From NCBI GenBank assembly GCA_015200345.1, contig CP054187.1:1844470-1908469 (forward strand): a DNA stretch of 64,000 bases. Reading direction: 5' to 3'. Under the pieces are notes generated by a model that was given only the letters and a program-made list of their open reading frames with translations, searched no databases and was not told the origin of the DNA. The first letter of the stretch is position 1, and each line of letters begins with the position of its first letter. Source of the stretch: Planctomycetia bacterium. GTDB lineage: Bacteria; Planctomycetota; Phycisphaerae; UBA1845; UTPLA1. Positions 4,148 through 13,764 of this stretch are shown here, in pieces. The translations under genes and the position numbers were made by a program.

Positions 4148-5917
4148 CTAGGCAAGCAGCATCGCCGCGTCCTGAATCGTGTTGCCGCACAACTGGCCCA
4201 CCGGAACAATGGCCGCAGGCGACTGCGGCTCGCTGGGCCGCCATAATAGTAATCTGTCGCGATTGTCGTTCACCGCCGCGATCCAATCATCCGCCGCCCA
4301 CGCCCAGCGAAGCGGCACCGCCGCCCGATATTCCCCGCGATAGGCATCGCCGATCACCAGCAAATCCAGCACCGGGCGGCGATCCGCCGCCAGCAGCCGC
4401 GCGATCCCTCCCCCCGGCAGCCAGTGCAGCGATTCCACGGCGTGACCCGTCGGACCGCGCAGCTCCGCCAGATCGTGCGGCGCGCGCGTCGGCCAGCGCA
4501 GCAGACGCCCGTCTTTCAGCCCCGCAAAGACCCAGCCCTCTGCGACGCACAGCGCCGTCACTTCCGCCGGCGCGGTCAGCAGCACCGGCGCTTCGGCGGA
4601 ATCGGGCCGCCAGCCGGCGACGCGGGAATCAATCGAAAACCAGATCGCGCCCGCGCCATCGCACTGCACGTCGCGCACGCTCTTCGCGCCAACGGTCAAC
4701 TGCTCGAGGCACGCCGTGCCATCGTCGGCCGCCGCCGCGCCGCCGGACTCTCCCGGTGCGGCGTGCACCGCCCATCGCCGCAGCCCGGCCTCGGAATGCG
4801 TCGCATAGAGCCGCTCGCCGAGCAGAACAGCCGCGTTCACGCCGCCGCGCGGCGATGCGGGTTGGTCAAACGCAAACTGGCGCGTCAGGCTGAATTCGCC
4901 ATTCAGCAAGTACACACCACGCCGCGCGCCAACAAGCACCGTGCGCGCACCGACGGATTCCATCACCCGCACCGAACGCAATGGGCCGATGTCACCCTCG
5001 AGCCGCCGCCGCCACGCCAGTTGATGCGGCGACGCCGGATCGACCGCCAGCAACTCATCTCCCGCGACGAGCAGGATCAGCGCCGTTCGGCGCGACGCGG
5101 GCTGCGCCAGCAAGCCGGCATAGAGCTGGGCGCGCTGGCCGGCGTCAAACGTGCGAATCAATTCCGCGACGCGCGCCTCGCCCGATTCCCCCGCCATCGC
5201 GCGGACCTTGTCGAGCATGGAGGCCAGCGACGCCAGATGCGCCTCCCGCGAAGCTGCCGCCATCTTCCGCAGAGACGCTTCTTCTTCGAGTCGTTGACGG
5301 CGCTGCTCGGCGAAGCGCTCATCGTGCCGAGCGGCCTCAAACGCGCTGGACGCGAACTCCACCCGCACGTCGGCACACAGGCCCAGCCCGCTCGAAAAGC
5401 CGAACGGCTTGAACCGCTCGGCGAGCGCGGCATCGAATGCTTCCCATGTGGCGACGCTCGCCAGTTCCGCGGCGGTCCGCGTGCCGGCGAAGTCGGCTGC
5501 TTCACGCCGCACGACTTCCTCGCAATGGCGTTGCAATTGGTCGAGCGTGACGCGCTCACCGCTGCCGACGACGGCGCGGTGGAACGACGCCAACTCGTCG
5601 CGATGCGGCACTAGCTGCACGCGCAGATGAACCTTCGCGATGAAATCGAATCCGTCCGAGGACGGCAGACCGCGAAACTCGAACGTCAACGGAAGCGGAT
5701 CGGTCCGCGCGATCAGGATGCGCCGCCAGCGGCCGCTCTCGATCTCCGCACCGGCTCGCAGTAATTCAGGTTGATCCCCGTCCGCCCACGCCAGCGCCAG
5801 GCACGACGCCGGCACGGTGACGCGCCGGGAGAGAAGCGGAAAAACATCCGATGCGAACGTGACGGCCGCGACCGCTTGCGGATCGCGCGTGAACCTGTCC
5901 AGATCGAATCGTGGCAT
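4148..5917 (-). CDS. SPFH/Band-7-like domain fused to a C-terminal beta-propeller
   Basis: A 589-aa protein, last gene of the ESCRT-like block. Residues ~15-190 follow the SPFH/Band-7 plan: RRVTVPASCLALAWADG and AGAEIESGRW opening strands, SSDGFDFIAKVHLRVQLV, then a helical part around LQRHCEEVVRREAADF and LAERFKPFGFSSGLGL. Residues ~205-250 are a charged coiled coil (ERFAEQRRQRLEEEASLRK). From ~275 onward, repeated strand patterns (LILLVAGDELLAVDP, GARTVLVGARRGVYLLNG, GAIWFSIDSRVAGW, GWVFAGLKDGRLLRW) indicate a WD40-like propeller. No signal peptide or membrane helix is evident. SPFH proteins scaffold membrane microdomains; here a membrane-docking or recruitment platform for the neighbouring AAA/Snf7 proteins is inferred. 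Confidence 0.7.
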   Translation of the reverse strand: MPRFDLDRFTRDPQAVAAVTFASDVFPLLSRRVTVPASCLALAWADGDQPELLRAGAEIESGRWRRILIARTDPLPLTFEFRGLPSSDGFDFIAKVHLRVQLVPHRDELASFHRAVVGSGERVTLDQLQRHCEEVVRREAADFAGTRTAAELASVATWEAFDAALAERFKPFGFSSGLGLCADVRVEFASSAFEAARHDERFAEQRRQRLEEEASLRKMAAASREAHLASLASMLDKVRAMAGESGEARVAELIRTFDAGQRAQLYAGLLAQPASRRTALILLVAGDELLAVDPASPHQLAWRRRLEGDIGPLRSVRVMESVGARTVLVGARRGVYLLNGEFSLTRQFAFDQPASPRGGVNAAVLLGERLYATHSEAGLRRWAVHAAPGESGGAAAADDGTACLEQLTVGAKSVRDVQCDGAGAIWFSIDSRVAGWRPDSAEAPVLLTAPAEVTALCVAEGWVFAGLKDGRLLRWPTRAPHDLAELRGPTGHAVESLHWLPGGGIARLLAADRRPVLDLLVIGDAYRGEYRAAVPLRWAWAADDWIAAVNDNRDRLLLWRPSEPQSPAAIVPVGQLCGNTIQDAAMLLA

Positions 5918-6068: not shown

Positions 6069-7187
6069 CTACCCCCCCGCGCGGAACCGTTCAAAACGCA
6101 GCAGGTCGTTCTTGTTCACGCTTGGCGGCAATTGCTCGATCACCGAGAAAATATCGGCCCGGCTGATCGGCCGAGGCTCGCCGCCGCCGATCGCGCTCAT
6201 GAACGGAATCGTCGCTGCCTTCTCGGCAATCGCCTTGACGTCGGCTCCGCTGTAGCCGTCGAGCCGTTCAACGATCTCGCCGAAATCCACATCGTCGGCC
6301 AGCGGGCGCTTGCCGAGATAAATCTCCACCAGCTTGAATCGCGCCGGCGCATCGGGCAAGGGCACGTACACCTTCGAATCAAATCGACCCGGCCGCATGA
6401 CCGCGCTGTCCAGCGCCCACGGCTCGTTGGTCGCGCCGACAAACAACAGCGGATTCGATTTTGCGTTGCGATCGAAGCCCTCCAGCTCCTGCAAAATCTG
6501 CGGTACCACGCGCGTCATCACGCTGCTGTTCGAATCGCGCCGGCTGGGCACCAGCGCCTCGATCTCGTCGATGAAGATGATCGAACGCCGTTCGGCCTTC
6601 GCCGCGGTGAACAACTTGCGAATGTTCTGCTCCGCTTCGCCGACCCATTTGCTCAACACCTGCGCCGGGCTGATGACGAACATCGTCGCGTCGATCTCGG
6701 CCGCGACGGCCTTGGCGATCATCGTCTTGCCGGTGCCGGGCGGGCCGTAGAGCAGCAGGCCGCCGCCGGTGGCGATGCCGTATTTCGCTGCCAGCTCCGG
6801 GTGGCTGAACGGGTAGATCATTTTCATGCGGATTTCGTGCTTCACATCCTCCAGCCCGGCGATGTCGTCGAAGCGGACCGACGGCTTCTCGCGCACGACC
6901 CAATCGGAGGCATCGGTGCCCTTGTCGTCGCCATCGCTCGCCGCCGCGCGGCGCAAGGCGCGCTTCTGGTCCGCGCGCTCGTCGCACTGCCGTGCGAACT
7001 CGATCAACTCCGCCGCCATCACCTTCCGCCGCTGCCGCCGCGTCGGATCGCCGGTCTCGGCCGCGATCTTGATCATCGCATCCGCCGCCTGCATGAGAAA
7101 CGGCTTGGCCTCGGCATAGTTGCCGGCCTTGTACGCAGCAAGTCCGCGAGTCTTCAATCGTTCGAAGGTGTCGTAGGAGATGGTCAT
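6069..7187 (-). CDS. Vps4-like AAA ATPase with N-terminal MIT-like domain
   Basis: Start chosen at the ATG at 7187 (MTISYDTFERL), because the duplicated remnant at 8114 begins at the same codon; 372 aa. Residues ~5-75 form a three-helix MIT-like domain (GLAAYKAGNYAEAKPFLMQ, then RRKVMAAELIEFARQCDER). The AAA core has Walker A GPPGTGKT (148-155), pore loop SKWVGEAE (179-186), Walker B IIFIDE (203-208), sensor GATN and the MRPGRFD arginine-finger segment. It ends with PPSVNKNDLLRFERF, matching the C-terminal helix of the Vps4/katanin/spastin (meiotic) clade. Eukaryotic Vps4 disassembles ESCRT-III filaments; with three Snf7-like genes alongside, the same role is inferred here. The closest alternative is a generic bacterial AAA unfoldase. 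Confidence 0.85.
   Translation of the reverse strand: MTISYDTFERLKTRGLAAYKAGNYAEAKPFLMQAADAMIKIAAETGDPTRRQRRKVMAAELIEFARQCDERADQKRALRRAAASDGDDKGTDASDWVVREKPSVRFDDIAGLEDVKHEIRMKMIYPFSHPELAAKYGIATGGGLLLYGPPGTGKTMIAKAVAAEIDATMFVISPAQVLSKWVGEAEQNIRKLFTAAKAERRSIIFIDEIEALVPSRRDSNSSVMTRVVPQILQELEGFDRNAKSNPLLFVGATNEPWALDSAVMRPGRFDSKVYVPLPDAPARFKLVEIYLGKRPLADDVDFGEIVERLDGYSGADVKAIAEKAATIPFMSAIGGGEPRPISRADIFSVIEQLPPSVNKNDLLRFERFRAGG
7060..7187. repeat. 128-bp direct repeat, copy 1 (start of the AAA gene)
   Basis: Covers the first ~43 codons (MIT-like domain) of the Vps4-like gene. It matches 7987-8114 at 120 of 128 positions by eye, without gaps. Identity stops abruptly at the ATG on one side and near the GCCGCG at the other. 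Confidence 0.9.
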
Positions 7188-7213
7188 AACCGCCGAGAAA
7201 AATGGTATCCGTG

Positions 7214-7623
7214 TCAACCTCGAGGCCTGGCTTCCGCCGGCAAGCCTCCGACAATAAAATCAAGCATCTGGTGCGCCGCGACGACAGCTTCGGTGACCAT
7301 TTCAGGAATCACACGCGAAGCAGAATCGGGATAGCGCAGATCAACCGCACAGGTTGTGAGCCATTCCCAAGCCCTGCTACCTGGTTCAGGCCGGGAAGCC
7401 ATCGTTCGCAGAGGCCCATCAAGTCGATCAAATCATGCGTTCGCGGAGGCCGTTGATCGTTGAGAAGTAGAACCCCTTTGAGCGCCTTCTCAATGGCTTG
7501 CTGAAGGTGAAAACAAGCGGACTCCGGCAGCGGCGGCGTCGAGGCAAGCAGGACATCTGCCGCTTGCAAATCCTGACGAGCCGCTGCCATCCAATCGCGC
7601 ACGAGTTCAACTTTCGGCGGCAT
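7214..7623 (-). pseudogene. HEPN-domain toxin gene with a frameshift
   Basis: Starts at ATG 7623 (MPPKVELVRDWMAAARQDL), overlapping the end of the MNT gene by 17 bases. It has the HEPN plan: paired helices, ACFHLQQAIEKALKGVLL and the RNase motif Rx4H as RPPRTH in NDQRPPRTHDLIDL. After WLPGLNQ the frame drifts into non-family sequence and stops at 7309. The expected ending (EWLTTCAVDLRYPD, then PEMVTEAVVAAHQMLDFIV) continues in the next frame to a stop at 7214. A one-base deletion around 7365-7400 explains it: 410 nt remain where 411 would encode 136 residues plus stop. HEPN proteins of MNT/HEPN pairs are RNases. A sequencing error is the alternative to true inactivation. Confidence 0.75.
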
Positions 7624-7951
7624 ATAGCCTGATTCCTTTCTGCCGGATTTCGTGCTGAAAGCTGCCGAATACGTCGGCATAGCGATTGAATCGCTCCTGC
7701 GTGCTGAAATGAAGCTCAATCGGCAACCCACTCGGTCGAACGGCAGCATAGGCCTTTCGATAGTCATCCCCGCTTATGCAATCGCTTTCCAGCAGCACCA
7801 TCAGATCGACGTCGCTGCCTGTTCTGGGCACACCGCGCGCATGCGAACCGAACAAGTAGATCGCACGAGGGGATAGCGCTTCGACCAGCCGGCGCACAGC
7901 AATCGTCAGGGTTTCATCCGACAGTTTGTTATGCGGATTGAATTGCACCAT
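7607..7951 (-). CDS. MNT-type nucleotidyltransferase antitoxin
   Basis: A 114-aa minimal nucleotidyltransferase. The core motif is LFGSHARGVPRTGSDVDLMV, i.e. GS...DxD with the first two catalytic/metal residues present. In MNT/HEPN systems this partner AMPylates or otherwise neutralises the HEPN RNase. I chose ATG 7951 (MVQFNPHNKL), preceded by GGTGA, rather than 7981, because the upstream codons overlap the duplicated AAA remnant. The HEPN gene follows with a 17-bp overlap. The pair sits inside an otherwise uniform minus-strand operon. Confidence 0.85.
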   Translation of the reverse strand: MVQFNPHNKLSDETLTIAVRRLVEALSPRAIYLFGSHARGVPRTGSDVDLMVLLESDCISGDDYRKAYAAVRPSGLPIELHFSTQERFNRYADVFGSFQHEIRQKGIRLYAAES

Positions 7952-7955
7952 AACG

Positions 7956-8114
7956 TCACCCGTTTCCACAGCATACTCCAAAGCCTGCCGCGATCTTGTT
8001 CATCGCATCCGCCGCCTGCATGAGAAACGGCTTGGCCTCGGCATCGTTGCCGGCCTTGTAGGCCGCCAGTCCGCGAGTCTTGAGGCGTTCGAAGGTGTCG
8101 TAGGAGATGGTCAT
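7956..8114 (-). pseudogene. Truncated second copy of the Vps4-like gene (MIT fragment)
   Basis: From ATG 8114 it reads MTISYDTFERLKTRGLAAYK, as in the intact gene, through MQAADAMNKIAA, then switches to unrelated residues (GFGVCCGNG) and stops at 7956-7958. Only ~43 of 372 codons are shared. This is either the stump left when the MNT/HEPN cassette disrupted an original gene copy, or a partial duplication generated with the insertion. The 52-residue ORF could still be translated as a lone MIT-like fragment, but that is speculative. Confidence 0.75.
7987..8114. repeat. 128-bp direct repeat, copy 2 (AAA remnant)
   Basis: Second copy of the MIT coding stretch, about 94% identical to 7060-7187, with eight substitutions counted by eye. 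Together the two copies bracket the MNT/HEPN pair. Confidence 0.9.
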
Positions 8115-8153
8115 AATGAATTAATGCGCTGATCAGTTTGCATTCTTGACTGA

Positions 8154-8762
8154 TTACTTCGTCTCCTTCGCCCCGGCGTTTTTCACTTCGTTCAACTCCG
8201 CCCGGAGCGCATCCAGCTCGTCCACATCCTTCGCATGTTCCGCCTCGCTCTCGGCGTCGATCATCGCGTCGATCTCGGCGTCGGTCACCACTTCGGCCGG
8301 AACATGCTCGGTGTCTTTCGCCGCGATGTCTTCCACCGTCTCGAGGAACATCGTCATCCGCTCTTCCATCGTCTGGCTCTGGGCCATCGCCTTTTCCCAT
8401 TCCGTCTGCGTGCGCACCAGGTCCGTCTCGCCGAACATGCGGGCGATCTCGCGGGCCATGGTGCCCATCGCCTCGGCAAAATCGCTGCTCGCCTCGGCCT
8501 GGCGCTTGATGATCAGCGCGTTCTTCACGGCCAGCAGTTGCCGCTCAAGCATTTTCTTCACCGTGGCCGTCTTTTTCAGTGAGTTGCGAATGAAGACATA
8601 CTGCGCATTGTCGCCGATCTGTTTGGCGCGGCGGGCGTTCTTCACGAACTCGTCGGTGAACTTGTTCTGCTCGGCGATCGACTTCTCGATCCGCCGGATG
8701 CCCTGGCGAATTTTGATGTCCCGCTCGATGCGGCGCTCTTCGGAACTCTTGAACAGGCTCAT
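8154..8762 (-). CDS. ESCRT-III/Snf7-like (CHMP-like) protein with MIM1-like tail
   Basis: A 202-aa protein with the ESCRT-III charge layout: a basic N-terminal half (FKSSEERRIERDIKIRQGIR, KNARRAKQIGDNAQYVFIRN) forming a long helical hairpin, a middle helix (DFAEAMGTMAREIARMF), and an acidic C-terminal half (DAEIDAMIDAESEAE). The last helix, LDALRAELNEVK (183-194), resembles the MIM1 motif that binds Vps4 MIT domains, with hydrophobic residues at the expected i, i+4, i+7 pattern and a terminal Lys. No signal peptide or membrane helix is seen; membrane association would be peripheral. The Vps4-like gene lies downstream in the same operon. PspA/Vipp1 relatives are the main alternative, but the acidic tail is more CHMP-like. 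Confidence 0.75.
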   Translation of the reverse strand: MSLFKSSEERRIERDIKIRQGIRRIEKSIAEQNKFTDEFVKNARRAKQIGDNAQYVFIRNSLKKTATVKKMLERQLLAVKNALIIKRQAEASSDFAEAMGTMAREIARMFGETDLVRTQTEWEKAMAQSQTMEERMTMFLETVEDIAAKDTEHVPAEVVTDAEIDAMIDAESEAEHAKDVDELDALRAELNEVKNAGAKETK

Positions 8763-8812: not shown

Positions 8813-9595
8813 CTAATCTTCAACGACGGCCTCGGCGTCGCGCGCGCGACCGCCCTGCCGTGCCGGTTCTGCTTCGCCGGCCGCGCCATGCGTTTCCGCG
8901 TTGATCGTCGGCGCCTCGATCGCAACCGCCGGTTCAACCGCTTCATCACGCTCAATCGCCACGCCCCGCTCGATCCGTGGCTCACTCGCTTCGGCCGATT
9001 CCACGGAAATCGGTCGCGACACCGCCGAGGATGCGATCGGCACCGGAGAAGCGTCTGACCTTTCCGGCGGCACGTTCGCTTCGATCGCTTCCTCCGAGGT
9101 CGGTGCGGCCTCTGTTTGCTTGCGTCGCTGCGGCGGGTAATCCGTCGCGTTCATGCTCAACCGCTTGCCGCATCGCGCGCAGTAATTCGCCGTCACCACT
9201 TCGACCGGCGCCTGGCAGGTCGGGCAAACGGCCGGCGATCGCGCCGCCTGCGCCGCCTCGTCACGCAAGAACGCCTCGATGCGATGGGCCAGCATCAGGC
9301 AATCCTCCCTCGAACCCGGCGACAGACTCACGACCGTGCGCCCCTTCTTGCGCGAAAACTCGATGTCCACGGCGGGCCGGTCGCTCGGCCAGTTAAGCAG
9401 AAACGTGTTCACCCGGTCGCCCCAGCTTGGCCGATGGCTCTCCCAACCACCGCGTGACGGCGCGGGCGGCCCCTCGATCCGCACGCCATCGAGGTACCAC
9501 GGCTCGACGATGCGCATGCCGCGGCGCAGGGCGAACTGCATCAGCGCCCACCGCGCTCGGTCCTTGCTGCAATCGACGAATACGTCAAATGCCAT
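8813..9595 (-). CDS. Zinc-ribbon protein of the ESCRT-like operon
   Basis: A 260-aa protein. Residues 1-~115 look like a small alpha/beta domain (MAFDVFVDCSKDRARWAL, PAVDIEFSRKKGRTVVSLSP) of unrecognised family. A four-Cys zinc ribbon follows (CPTCQAP... then YCARCGKRL), and the last ~120 residues are Ala/Glu/Pro-rich low complexity. The same ribbon type recurs in the kinase and small membrane protein of this operon. It follows the second Snf7-like gene by 14 bases. Function unknown; an adaptor role is only a guess. Confidence 0.7.
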   Translation of the reverse strand: MAFDVFVDCSKDRARWALMQFALRRGMRIVEPWYLDGVRIEGPPAPSRGGWESHRPSWGDRVNTFLLNWPSDRPAVDIEFSRKKGRTVVSLSPGSREDCLMLAHRIEAFLRDEAAQAARSPAVCPTCQAPVEVVTANYCARCGKRLSMNATDYPPQRRKQTEAAPTSEEAIEANVPPERSDASPVPIASSAVSRPISVESAEASEPRIERGVAIERDEAVEPAVAIEAPTINAETHGAAGEAEPARQGGRARDAEAVVED

Positions 9596-9609: not shown

Positions 9610-10218
9610 TCACGACGCGCCCTCGGCCTGCTGATGCCGCTCGCGCACGCGACGCTCGGCCTCGTCAAACGCCTGCCCCTCGTCGGAAATCAGGCCCGTG
9701 TCCATTTGTTCCCACACGTCCAGCACCTGCTTCGACCCCGGCGTCAGGATGCTCTCGCCATCTGTCGCCGACACCTGCAACATGTCGTCCAGACGCTCCT
9801 GGTACATCTCCGACGTGATCGAATCGTTGGCGATCATCTTCTCCAGCGCGATCAAATCCTTCTCGGAGATCAGCCCCAGCCGCGAGCCGCGAGCCTTCGC
9901 CCGGTCGGCGTTCTCGCGCAGCATGCGCATGCGCGAAACGGTGAGATACTCCTTCGAGCGGATGTTGAGCTGCCGACCCATCATCAACTGCTCGGTCGTC
10001 TTCAGGTCGAACTCCTGCGCCAGCATGCGCCGCACTTCGGGCGATTTCTCCTCGCGCCCGCGCTGGAATATCTCCTGCTTCTTCGCCGCGACGTCCTGAA
10101 TCTTCTTATGCAACTGCTGACGCTCGCGGTCCAGGAGCAGCTCCTGACGACGAAGCTCCTGCCGCGTCATTTGTGACAGCGCCTTGCCGCGTTTCGTCAG
10201 CCAGTCAAACAGTCCCAT
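9610..10218 (-). CDS. Second ESCRT-III/Snf7-like coiled-coil protein
   Basis: A 202-aa, highly helical and charged protein. It opens with MGLFDWLTKRGKAL, a short amphipathic start like the membrane-inserting helix of ESCRT-III/PspA proteins. A basic hairpin follows (RQELRRQELLLDRERQQL, DVAAKKQEIFQRGR, EVRRMLAQEF, QLNIRSKEYLTVSRMRML), then an acidic C-terminal part. Length and charge polarity match CHMP-type proteins, though similarity is weaker than for the 8154-8762 protein and no clear MIM is seen. Its neighbours are a zinc-ribbon gene 14 bases downstream and the winged-helix Snf7 fusion upstream. Confidence 0.6.
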   Translation of the reverse strand: MGLFDWLTKRGKALSQMTRQELRRQELLLDRERQQLHKKIQDVAAKKQEIFQRGREEKSPEVRRMLAQEFDLKTTEQLMMGRQLNIRSKEYLTVSRMRMLRENADRAKARGSRLGLISEKDLIALEKMIANDSITSEMYQERLDDMLQVSATDGESILTPGSKQVLDVWEQMDTGLISDEGQAFDEAERRVRERHQQAEGAS

Positions 10219-10406: not shown

Positions 10407-11819
10407 TCAACCCTCCGCCTGCGCCGGGCCGCGATCTTTCTGGCCGCTCGCACGCGACGGCGGCGCGGCATCCGCGCTTGTGCTCGATGCGTTCGTTGAT
10501 CTGGCCACCGCCGCATCGCCTTCCAGTTCCTTCAGAATCGCCGCCTCGTCCTCGGAGATCGACGTCTCGGCCAGGCCCACTTCCAGCCCGCTCACGAGTT
10601 CATCGTTCGCAGAAAGCTGTTCGAGCATCTCCTCGGCGTTCACCGCTGCCTCGGTCAGCTCCTCGCTCGTCGGCATCTCCGCTGCCGTGCCGGTGCGGGC
10701 CAACTCGAGATTGTGAATGTGCGTGCTGATGATGTTGATCTGCTTCGAGAGGATCGACGCGCTCGTGTTGCACCGGGAGATGTCCTTGCGAAGGTGCGCG
10801 ATCTGCGACGCCAGACGCCGCTTCGCCACCTGCGACGACTGTTTCTTGCCCTCTTCCACCATGTCGGCCTCGCGCTTCTCCAGCCGCGCGATGTCGTCAT
10901 ACATCCGGTCGAGCCGGCCCGACAACGCCGCACGCCGCTCGGCAAGGACGTTGATCTTCTTCGCCTCGTCGCCCTCGCGCGAGAACAGGCTCTTGATCCA
11001 TTCGGCCAGCGACATTGAATCGTTCTCCTTGCCGGGATCGGCCGGCGCTCCGCGATACAGATAAACGTCTCCATCCTGCCGGCTGACGCGCAGCTCGTCG
11101 TCCTGCCGCGCGACCGCCTCGAACGCCTGGCGCACCAGCGGCAGCGGCAGCTCCAGCCGGCGCGCCATGCTATCGGCCGACAGACCGCCGGTCAGCAGGT
11201 CGGTCCGGCGGTTCTCAATCTCCCGGCGGACGCGCGCGACCTTCTCACCGACGTCTTCGGGGTCGAAGAGGCGCAGCAGCCGTTCATCGAGTTGCCGACC
11301 GGTCGATGCGACGCGCCAACCCCCGCCGGGCCGCGGCGCGACCAGCACGACGCGCACGTTGTGCAGATCGAGGTTCGCGTGATAGACGCTCTCCTCAAAC
11401 CCGCTCGGGCTGCACACGCCGATCAGGTGCGGGGCTTTGCCGTCGGTCACCAGCTCGCGCACGTGCGCCGTCACCTCCGCCAGCGTCACCGGCGGCGGAT
11501 TCTCGTTGCCGTCCAGCAGCGGACCGGGCGGGCACAGCACGCTCGCCACCGCCACGCTGCGAAGCTTCTTCCCGAAGAGGAAGCGCCGATCAAACCCGCG
11601 CACCGTGAACCCGCGCCCGTGCGGCAGGCGCGACAACCGCTCGCGATCAAACATCCGCCGATCGATCATCGCCGCGCGCAACGCCTCGGCGCGATCGTGA
11701 TCGGCGCGGCGAAACCACTTTCCCGAAATGACGCGCCCTTCGGCCGCCTTCAGGTTCGCCGCCGCGCCGGCCAGAAAGGCCGACTCGACTTCCAGCGCGT
11801 GTTCCGCAGCCGACTTCAA
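10407..11819 (-). CDS. Winged-helix domain fused to ESCRT-III/Snf7-like coil
   Basis: A 470-aa protein in two parts. Residues 1-~200 are an unrecognised alpha/beta region (KLRSVAVASVLCPPG, VTLAEVTAHVRELV, HNVRVVLVAPRPGGGW). Residues ~210-257 look like a winged helix (LSADSMARRLELPLPLVRQA, then DELRVSRQDGDVYLYRG). Residues ~268-430 begin SLAEWIKSLFSREGDEAKK and form a basic helical hairpin (RRAALSGRLDRMYDDIARLE, VAKRRLASQIAHLRKDISR, SKQINIISTHIHNLELA), followed by an acidic helix pair, as in Snf7 proteins. The tail is disordered. The order winged helix then Snf7 recalls eukaryotic CHMP7. Recruitment of the Snf7 module by the N-terminal part is inferred, not shown. Confidence 0.65.
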   Translation of the reverse strand: MKSAAEHALEVESAFLAGAAANLKAAEGRVISGKWFRRADHDRAEALRAAMIDRRMFDRERLSRLPHGRGFTVRGFDRRFLFGKKLRSVAVASVLCPPGPLLDGNENPPPVTLAEVTAHVRELVTDGKAPHLIGVCSPSGFEESVYHANLDLHNVRVVLVAPRPGGGWRVASTGRQLDERLLRLFDPEDVGEKVARVRREIENRRTDLLTGGLSADSMARRLELPLPLVRQAFEAVARQDDELRVSRQDGDVYLYRGAPADPGKENDSMSLAEWIKSLFSREGDEAKKINVLAERRAALSGRLDRMYDDIARLEKREADMVEEGKKQSSQVAKRRLASQIAHLRKDISRCNTSASILSKQINIISTHIHNLELARTGTAAEMPTSEELTEAAVNAEEMLEQLSANDELVSGLEVGLAETSISEDEAAILKELEGDAAVARSTNASSTSADAAPPSRASGQKDRGPAQAEG

Positions 11820-11917: not shown

Positions 11918-12178
11918 TCACCGCCCGCGCGGGCGGCCGCACATGCGGCAGAACTTCGCGTACGGCGGGTTGGCGGCGCGGCATCGACCACGATCGCATT
12001 CCCAGTGAATCACCGGCGGCGCGCCGTTCTCCCGGAGGCCCGCTCGGTCCGACAGACCCTCCTCGCACATATCTCGAAACGCGGCGCGCAACGATAGAAC
12101 GGTGATCACCGCCGCCAAGGTCAAAAACCCGATCACGATCAGGCTCGGGGGGCCGATTCCAGTCGACCAGAACACCAT
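11918..12178 (-). CDS. Small membrane protein with cytoplasmic zinc ribbon
   Basis: 86 aa from ATG 12178, four bases after the kinase stop, which supports this start. One transmembrane helix (SLIVIGFLTLAAVITVLSL) is followed by a C-terminal ribbon with paired cysteines (WECDRGRC... then FCRMCGRPRGR), similar in kind to ribbons in two other proteins of the operon. The topology suggests a membrane anchor presenting a zinc ribbon to the cytoplasm. No known family recognised. Confidence 0.7.
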   Translation of the reverse strand: MVFWSTGIGPPSLIVIGFLTLAAVITVLSLRAAFRDMCEEGLSDRAGLRENGAPPVIHWECDRGRCRAANPPYAKFCRMCGRPRGR

Positions 12179-12182
12179 CGCT

Positions 12183-13241
12183 TCAGCCCACCCTTTCCGG
12201 CAGGGCGCCTCCGCAGAACACACAGAAGCGATCATCGGCTGCGGGGTAACCGCCGCACTGCTCGCAGCGACGCGGGTTCGTCACCAGCTGCGCGCCGCAA
12301 TGAATGCAAAAGTTGTCATCGCGCTCGACGCGCCCGCCGCAGGCCGGGCAGCTCCCACCCACCGCGACCCCGACCGGCCGCGAACGCAAATGATCGGATG
12401 AGCGAATAATCGGGGGCGCGCTGCCCGCGTCAATCATCGCCAGCGCCTCGGTCGCTGACGCCAGCCGCCGATCGCGACGTGTATACAACTTGCTGAATAC
12501 ACCATCCACCCACGACGGCAGGCCCGGCCGGATGTGCGACGGCAGGTCTCCTCCGCTGGGCCGCTCGCCGCAGCACATTTCAAAGAGAACGATGCCCACC
12601 GAGTACAGATCGCTCCGATTGTCGGTCTGCCCCCCGTCCCGCTGCTCGGGCGACATGTAGGCCAGCGTGCCCGAAATGCTGCGGCCCTCCTCGGAAACAA
12701 GGCTGCCCGATTGAAGAATGCTCGCCGTGGTGACCTCCCCCGCCTGCCCCAGCCCGAAATCCGTCACCTTCACGTCATCCGTGACAATCGTCTCCACTGG
12801 CTTCCGGCCCGCCCCGGCCACCAGCACGTTGGCCGGCTTGATGTCCCGGTGGATCACCCCGTTGGTGTGCGCGTGCTCCAGCGCCCGCAGAATCCCCACC
12901 GTGATCTGTTGTACGCTGGACGGCGGCAATCCACGCGGGTGCCTCTCGATCAGCCCCGCCAGCGACAGCCCCTCCACGTACTCCATCACCAGATACGGAA
13001 CGTCCGCGAACGGGTCCAGGCCGATCGCACGCACGATGTTCGGGTGACGCAGCCCGTGAATGGCGATGCCTTCCTTCTGAAGGTTTCGCACGTACTGCGA
13101 ATCGGTCGGAACCTTGATGGCGACCGTGTCGTTTTTCCAGATGTGATGGTGGGCCTTCCAAACCTGGCCGAAGCTACCGACCCCGATCTGTTCATCGAGG
13201 ACGTACTCGCTGATTCGTTCTCCAGCCTTTGGCCCGGTCAT
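12183..13241 (-). CDS. Hanks-type Ser/Thr protein kinase with C-terminal zinc ribbons
   Basis: The 352-aa kinase is intact: glycine loop IGVGSFGQV, catalytic Lys in VAIK, hinge MEYVEGLSL, catalytic loop HRDIKPANV, DFG in VTDFGLG and the GTLAYMSPEQ activation-segment end. After residue ~290 come two tandem four-Cys ribbons (CPACGG..FCIHCGAQ and CEQCGG..FCVFCGG). There is no transmembrane helix, unlike PknB-type receptors. It is the second gene of the ESCRT-like block, after a membrane protein, and abuts the small zinc-ribbon membrane gene. The substrates are unknown; phosphorylation of the neighbouring Snf7, AAA or SPFH proteins is an inference from context. Confidence 0.92.
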   Translation of the reverse strand: MTGPKAGERISEYVLDEQIGVGSFGQVWKAHHHIWKNDTVAIKVPTDSQYVRNLQKEGIAIHGLRHPNIVRAIGLDPFADVPYLVMEYVEGLSLAGLIERHPRGLPPSSVQQITVGILRALEHAHTNGVIHRDIKPANVLVAGAGRKPVETIVTDDVKVTDFGLGQAGEVTTASILQSGSLVSEEGRSISGTLAYMSPEQRDGGQTDNRSDLYSVGIVLFEMCCGERPSGGDLPSHIRPGLPSWVDGVFSKLYTRRDRRLASATEALAMIDAGSAPPIIRSSDHLRSRPVGVAVGGSCPACGGRVERDDNFCIHCGAQLVTNPRRCEQCGGYPAADDRFCVFCGGALPERVG

Positions 13242-13338: not shown

Positions 13339-13764
13339 TCAACCGTTTACGTGTCGCGCCAGGGACTCGCAGATGATGAAATTATAAGCCCCCGCTGCGG
13401 CGAAACCAACCAGCACCACGAACCACGACAGCACGCCGCGGATCCCGCCATCCGCCAGCCAAAACGCCAAGAGAATGTCAACTACGCTGTAACCGCCGAT
13501 CACCCCAACGCTCACGGCCGCCGCGCCCTGCGCGCTGTTCATCCGAGCTTGTGCCGCCAGCAATGGGCGCATAAACAAGTAGCTCGACCACGGCAGCGCC
13601 GCCACCACGACCAGCCAGATGATCGTGAGCTTCACGACTCCGCCGGCCGCCTTGATCGACTCGGGATTCTTATAGGCCCAGTACCCGCCGGCCGCGACGC
13701 CCGCGAAGATGATCGCCGTCGCGACCTTCGCCCCGACAAACTTGAAAGCATCTACCAGGAACAT
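13339..13764 (-). CDS. Four-helix membrane protein heading the ESCRT-like operon
   Basis: A 141-aa hydrophobic protein with about four predicted membrane segments (ATAIIFAGVAAGGYWAY, KLTIIWLVVVAALPW, AAAVSVGVIGGYSVVDILLAF, VLSWFVVLVGFAAAGAYNFI). No recognised family or catalytic motif. It is the first gene after the divergent efp promoter region and is followed by the kinase after 97 bases. A membrane receptor or anchor role is plausible but unsupported beyond position. Confidence 0.65.
   Translation of the reverse strand: MFLVDAFKFVGAKVATAIIFAGVAAGGYWAYKNPESIKAAGGVVKLTIIWLVVVAALPWSSYLFMRPLLAAQARMNSAQGAAAVSVGVIGGYSVVDILLAFWLADGGIRGVLSWFVVLVGFAAAGAYNFIICESLARHVNG

Follow-up and report, generated by a model that had tools for sequence, protein, structure and literature searches.

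The window analysed here, a stretch of 64,000 nucleotides, belongs to a genome assembled as a single contig of 3.88 Mb, whose named relatives are Phycisphaerae/Planctomycetota. On its reverse strand it carries a gene cluster that opens with a small, apparently membrane-spanning protein (13339..13764), whose segments were read from sequence only and whose position as first gene is conserved. There follow a Ser/Thr protein kinase with C-terminal zinc ribbons (12183..13241; Pkinase E = 5e-40, DZR above cut-off), which is conserved in the cluster, a small zinc-ribbon protein recognised by Pfam search and cluster comparison (11918..12235), a conserved 470-aa protein (10407..11819), ES2, a 202-aa helical protein starting with MGLFDWLTKR and likewise conserved (9610..10218), and a further zinc-ribbon protein confined to close relatives (8813..9595; DZR_2 E = 1e-4, below cut-off). 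The last part of the cluster comprises ES1, a 202-aa protein assigned below to the ESCRT-III (Snf7) family (8154..8762), an MNT-HEPN toxin-antitoxin pair (7309..7981; HEPN E = 4e-16, MntA family), AAA1, a 372-aa AAA ATPase with a predicted MIT domain (6069..7187), and, directly downstream of it, a conserved neighbour with an SPFH/Band_7-like N-domain and a probable beta-propeller (4148..5917). Band_7 was matched by 4 of the 18 members of this SPFH/propeller family, with a best E of 4e-4.

ES1 is the gene just upstream of AAA1, and the two are parted here only by the MNT-HEPN pair, which is an insertion and lies outside the ES1/AAA1 system. A direct repeat of 130 nt (94%; 7060-7189 and 7987-8116) flanks the pair and corresponds to the duplicated 5' end of AAA1. 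The HEPN frame is seemingly shifted near its end, and a locus of the same genus (L039) holds at this site a different small ORF and no MNT-HEPN match. MNT/HEPN pairs were also observed just downstream of ES1 elsewhere (L152, L165, L169, L122, L148, L119, L127, L130, L056/L179), as if this site were a recurrent insertion spot for them.

The reading frame of AAA1 runs from an ATG at 7187 down to 6069, with a possible upstream extension to a TTG at 7217, and encodes one classical AAA domain with Walker A (GPPGTGKT, residues 148-155) and Walker B (FIDEIEAL, residues 205-212) motifs, an SRH and an aromatic pore loop, while residues 265-270 read RPGRFD. The Pfam models AAA (E = 7e-41) and AAA_lid_3 both match over their curated cut-offs, and Vps4_C does so on residues 338-368 (6084..6176), the C-terminal helix, with 23.3 bits against a cut-off of 21.3. 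The first-pass annotation had singled out an SKWVGEAE pore loop and a Vps4-type C-terminus, and both are present in the translated protein at confirmed positions: the former as pore loop 1 (6630..6653, residues 179-186), invariant in 21 close orthologues, the latter as PPSVNKNDLLRFERF (residues 354-368, window 6128-6084). Among 61 relatives, 48 of the 49 Vps4_C matches fall on the AAA1 C-terminus, and a match over the cut-off is present in 46 genomes. The top NCBIfam model for AAA1 is CdvC, which covers residues 16-367 at a score far under its equivalog cut-off of 650 bits. Full-length orthologues with 60-95% identity are carried by most of the order's genomes, and in the N-domain R10, K12, G15, G22, A27 and A34-A35, together with the whole pore loop, are invariant in 21 of 21 sequences. 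Such conservation excludes a chance origin, and AAA1 is a real, conserved gene. A phage origin was rejected, as the phage side gave only distant AAA matches (<60% identity), and so was a protein of the Cdc48/p97 type, with two AAA domains and an N-domain, since the 372 residues of AAA1 hold a single AAA domain and an MIT-like N-domain.

The N-terminal domain (residues 1-80, 6948..7187) was modelled with AlphaFold2 from 23 orthologues as a bundle of three helices (5-20, 24-44 and 48-79; mean pLDDT 88.7), which bears out the MIT-like N-terminus proposed earlier. When the model was compared with the PDB by Foldseek, the first ranks were taken by Vps4-Vps20, katanin p60, MITD1, VPS4B and Vps4 MIT domains (TM 0.74-0.86), the MIT of katanin p60 reaching TM 0.86 at 1.3 A, while an idealised designed TPR, the fold held up as the alternative, came only at rank 28 (TM 0.37). 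The VIA Z scores were 12.5 to the katanin p60 MIT and 12.3 to the Vps4 MIT, but the TPR-like bundles of NASP (12.4) and AIP (11.5) scored close to them, so that the fold match alone does not prove an MIT domain. At the sequence level the Pfam MIT model matched weakly (E = 0.011) and TPR_2 was weakly the best Pfam match; the first PDB match of the domain profile was the N-terminal domain of chitin synthase 1, spanning all three helices. A purely TPR reading is ruled out by the predicted fold, notwithstanding the closeness of NASP and AIP in VIA. The N-domain is moreover homologous (hhalign 95.5%) to that of a second planctomycete ATPase, introduced below, whose N-domain profile matches the MIT of VPS4B/SKD1 end to end over 70-77 residues (E about 2e-4). 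Given the predicted fold, the matches of the second ATPase and the homology between the two, we take residues 1-80 of AAA1 as an MIT domain.

To place the ATPase core, a tree of 54 sequences was built with FtsH, Cdc48 and PDB-verified Vps4, katanin, spastin and CdvC as outgroups, the yeast Vps4, spastin and katanin sequences being checked against PDB chains; a Sulfolobus solfataricus Vps4 served as search query only and was left out of the tree. Within this limited outgroup sampling, both planctomycete ATPases form one clade (100/97) with bacterial TPR-AAA proteins, CdvC and the eukaryotic Vps4, katanin and spastin, to the exclusion of Cdc48 and FtsH. Inside it, in the same 54-sequence tree with its limited outgroups, the AAA1 core joins the bacterial TPR-AAA proteins (98/90), and the sister of this group consists of CdvC, the eukaryotic proteins and the second planctomycete ATPase, which group together with 96/86. 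By the AU test, AAA1 could be joined to CdvC and the eukaryotic proteins without rejection (p 0.11-0.25), and at the 5% level the same held for a union with Cdc48 (p 0.07). An ATN-PW motif is common to nearly all the clade members compared, while the short RRF/SRF form is restricted to the second ATPase, CdvC and the eukaryotic proteins: the RRF/RRL that marks the SRH of the meiotic clade in Vps4, katanin, spastin and CdvC is two residues shorter than RPGRFD, and it is absent from AAA1, which has RPGRFD instead. The proposed meiotic-clade membership is thus supported to the extent that AAA1 sits, in this tree, inside the wider Vps4/katanin/CdvC clade that excludes Cdc48, but is not supported in the strict sense. 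Because AAA1 retains RPGRFD and branches with the TPR-AAA proteins, its sequence characterises it as Vps4-like rather than as a strict meiotic-clade member.

The Vps4/katanin signatures on which that proposal had relied are present as motifs, but they do not mark the meiotic clade alone, an SKW pore loop and a PSV-helix being found in Cdc48-D2 domains too. The D2 domain of Thermoplasma Cdc48 carries LSKWVGES, and the C-terminus of p97-D2 reads RSVSDNDIRKYEMF. Since archaeal Cdc48-D2 shares the pore loop, we no longer count it as diagnostic of Vps4. When the single AAA domain was compared by blastp, Cdc48-D2 scored 196 bits against 187 for CdvC. Single-domain AAA relatives of other architectures were noticed in the same order, some with an N-terminal TPR region (L191-L193) and others that lack an MIT and apparently have membrane segments (L189, L190).

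For the second component, ES1, 35 proteins of the family were combined into a profile, and with an E limit of 10 this retrieved seven chains from the whole set of PDB sequences, six of which were SNF7 (E 0.0025), CHMP3 and CHMP2A, the seventh being an FtsA. The Pfam Snf7 model matched 19 of the 35 members (best 2.7e-6); the ES1 of the window, searched singly, gave no Snf7 match. Across 392 of the phylum's genomes, the Snf7 HMM returned 26 matches, 25 of them ES1 genes that had been found independently and four above the curated cut-off, and among 14 control genomes only Sulfolobus was matched. The AlphaFold model, with helices at 7-49, 52-111, 115-153 and 161-199, shows the ESCRT-III helix order of an alpha1-alpha2 hairpin, alpha3-alpha4 and a C-terminal helix. 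Foldseek ranks 1-16 all belonged to the ESCRT-III superfamily (CHMP2A/3, Asgard ESCRT-III, CHMP1B, Snf7 and Vipp1), the closest folds being CHMP2A-CHMP3, Asgard ESCRT-III and CHMP1B, at E values of 0.02 or worse; by VIA, the scores to ESCRT-III were barely above those to unrelated long helical hairpins. The charge of the protein is strongly divided, with a net +11 in residues 1-110 and -17 in residues 111-202 of the window's ES1, and in 35 of 35 members a basic N-half (+7 to +14) precedes an acidic C-half (-9 to -25). A strict MIM1 motif, which is typical of some ESCRT-III subunits and not of all, was found in the tails of 0 of 35 members, and a looser pattern, L...L..[LVI][KR], in 15 of 15 ES1 of the window's order and 0 of 20 others. 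On profile and model evidence, ES1 is a member of the ESCRT-III (Snf7) family by remote homology (profile E 0.0025).

ES1 might instead be an envelope-stress protein of the PspA/Vipp1 type, with AAA1 in the role of PspF or as an unrelated chaperone. The Vipp1 filaments at Foldseek ranks 14 and 15 would fit such a protein, as would the SPFH partner, reminiscent of PspA-SPFH loci (PMC11188069). Yet it is the Snf7 model that recognises 19 of the 35 ES1 proteins, PspA_IM30 is absent among the Pfam matches listed for them, the source genome is without any PspA match, and PspA systems have been described as being without a clear Vps4 homologue (PMC7615534), so that we regard this explanation as highly improbable.

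The first-pass annotation had spoken of neighbouring Snf7-like proteins in the plural, and of these the evidence upholds ES1 as ESCRT-III, but not ES2 and the C-half of the 470-aa protein. The latter two are homologous to each other (hhalign 96%); among PDB sequences their profiles matched a splicing protein and ATG16L1, with E near 0.002, no Pfam model was matched, and profile comparison of ES1 with either of them found no relation. Both were accordingly rejected as ESCRT-III, and on the strength of their mutual match they are regarded here as helical subunits related to each other whose kind is unproven. ES2 would be a putative second filament subunit. The winged helix at the N-terminus of the 470-aa protein is a possible one, read from its residues with no confident Pfam match, and in other lineages the 470-aa protein is represented by two separate genes.

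The arrangement recurs well beyond the window. Among twenty relatives a gene order recurs that starts with the small membrane-like protein, continues through the kinase, a zinc ribbon, the 470-aa protein, ES2, ES1 and AAA1 and ends with the SPFH/propeller protein. Of 80 named loci, 66 are long enough to judge, and 45 of these have AAA1 downstream of ES1 at a distance of no more than 3.5 kb. Presence and absence agree as well: among 61 relatives, ES1 and AAA1 are both found in 48 and neither in 11, each occurring alone in one of two fragmented assemblies (Fisher p 3e-10, a value that ignores kinship). In several of the 48 genomes ES1 and AAA1 lie far apart, and the co-occurrence thus reflects more than linkage alone. 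In distant lineages, ES1 stands beside AAA1, the second MIT-ATPase or both in 18 of 20 loci, and in a nineteenth the start of the ATPase is cut by the contig end. This second MIT-ATPase (405-435 aa, with an SKYFGES pore loop and the short SRF form; L090, L091, L093, L097, L101-L104, L106, L107 and others) takes its place in other lineages where AAA1 is missing near ES1, and in some families it is the sole ATPase beside ES1.

Proteins of 363-394 aa without an AAA domain (L096 6259-7350 and L108 12433-13617) show a weak double match to the MIT-like region (E about 0.001-0.002) and are possible MIT adaptors. A contig labelled Candidatus Sumerlaeota (L186) carries ES1, AAA1 and the small membrane-like gene, which reflects either a transfer outside the phylum or mis-binning.

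The co-occurrence bears on whether the two proteins work together at all. AAA1 could be a bacterial AAA unfoldase for protein quality control, its TPR/MIT-like bundle binding other clients, and ES1 a coiled-coil neighbour in the operon rather than a substrate. The position of the core among bacterial TPR-AAA proteins, the blastp score slightly higher for Cdc48-D2 than for CdvC and the weakly best TPR_2 match are all compatible with this. However, the predicted fold of the N-domain is MIT and not a TPR pair, ES1 and AAA1 are present or absent jointly even when unlinked, other lineages pair ES1 with a second and different MIT-ATPase, and the Snf7 model recognises ES1 specifically, all of which makes an unfoldase with unrelated clients decidedly unlikely.

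Overall, the homology of ES1 to ESCRT-III, the predicted MIT fold, the Vps4_C match, the conserved clustering and the shared presence and absence point to a locus encoding a bacterial ESCRT-III/Vps4-like membrane-remodelling machine, a reading to which we assign a probability of about 0.78. We infer for it polymerisation, binding of the tail by the MIT domain, extraction of subunits and a membrane target. ES1 would polymerise on the membrane through its basic helical hairpin, in a filament made of ES1 and perhaps also of ES2 and the 470-aa protein, and the MIT domain of AAA1 would dock on its acidic C-terminal tail. Assembled as a hexamer stabilised by the Vps4_C helix, AAA1 would then thread ES1 through the SKW pore loop, extracting subunits and thereby remodelling or recycling the filament. 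Placing and regulating the filament would fall to ES2, the 470-aa protein, the SPFH-propeller protein, the kinase, the zinc ribbons and the probable small membrane protein.

Cdv archaea divide by means of the Cdv (ESCRT-type) machinery, and the planctomycete cluster might analogously serve in cytokinesis or scission in the stead of FtsZ, a role that would be compatible with an ESCRT-III/Vps4-like machine. No FtsZ match was found in the 61 relatives and none above the FtsZ cut-off in the 392 genomes of the phylum, and Phycisphaerae have been reported to undergo binary fission without FtsZ, the driver being called an open question (PMC6952346). On the other hand, near-complete FtsZ-less relatives are devoid of ES1 and AAA1 (e.g., G020, G030 and G033, 97, 99 and 98% complete, respectively), and ES1 occurs in none of the listed genomes from other orders of the class. 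The cluster is accordingly no general replacement of FtsZ, and a stand-in function in these planctomycetes appears unlikely; a role in division is nevertheless possible, as the phylum is without canonical FtsZ and Phycisphaerae divide without it. Weak FtsZ-like matches, below the cut-off, were observed in ten of the 392 genomes.

Compared with known systems, the ESCRT-III/Vps4-like cluster resembles the archaeal CdvBC or Vps4-ESCRT-III loci of Sulfolobales, in which an ESCRT-III subunit and an MIT-AAA-Vps4_C ATPase are encoded together, but it belongs to a bacterium, includes additional SPFH, kinase and zinc-ribbon genes and has no recognised CdvA. CdvC, the top NCBIfam model, shares with AAA1 the ATN-PW motif, the SKW pore loop and a PSVN C-terminal helix, while it has RRF in place of RPGRFD and a core identity of 38-39%. 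Eukaryotic Vps4 has the MIT fold and Vps4_C in common with AAA1, and Snf7, CHMP2A and CHMP3 are the closest to ES1 in profile and fold, from which ES1 nonetheless differs in its remoteness (profile E 0.0025) and in the want of a strict MIM1 tail. PspA and Vipp1 likewise represent membrane remodelling by the ESCRT-III superfamily in bacteria, with an SPFH partner, whereas ES1 is of the Snf7 type by HMM, is partnered by an MIT-ATPase and occurs in a genome without PspA. Vps4-like AAA ATPases transferred to bacteria have been described, for example ACB74714.1, with a TPR/6TM gene displacing snf7 (PMC11237479); AAA1 is likewise a Vps4-like AAA protein in a bacterium, but beside it a Snf7-family gene is retained. 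In the 'adaptin' ESCRT loci of methanogens an SPFH protein occurs with a coiled coil and a zinc ribbon (PMC11188069); these loci are archaeal, while in the present bacterial cluster a propeller follows the SPFH domain.

The published literature states that bacteria are without a clear Vps4 and places the combination of Vps4 and ESCRT-III in archaea and eukaryotes only, and in the literature searched, lying mostly outside subscription journals and preprints, no earlier description of ESCRT in Planctomycetota or Phycisphaerae was found. As far as that literature shows, the pairing of a Snf7-family protein with an MIT-AAA ATPase in bacteria is new; the combination of features, earlier called unusual for bacteria, is exceptional in our view as well. 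A more far-reaching proposal, which we put forward tentatively and consider somewhat unlikely as a whole, is that Planctomycetota carry a complete bacterial ESCRT, in which Snf7-family filaments and one or two MIT-AAA motors would carry out membrane scission (in division, vesicle formation or the shaping of intracytoplasmic membranes) in FtsZ-less bacteria. If this were true, ESCRT-III plus Vps4 would no longer be restricted to archaea and eukaryotes. A conserved bacterial cluster of Snf7-family and MIT-AAA genes contradicts the stated confinement and bears on the origin of ESCRT, whether ancestral or transferred, and, as a candidate membrane-remodelling system, it is amenable to study in a phylum noted for its unusual membranes and for division without FtsZ (PMC6952346).
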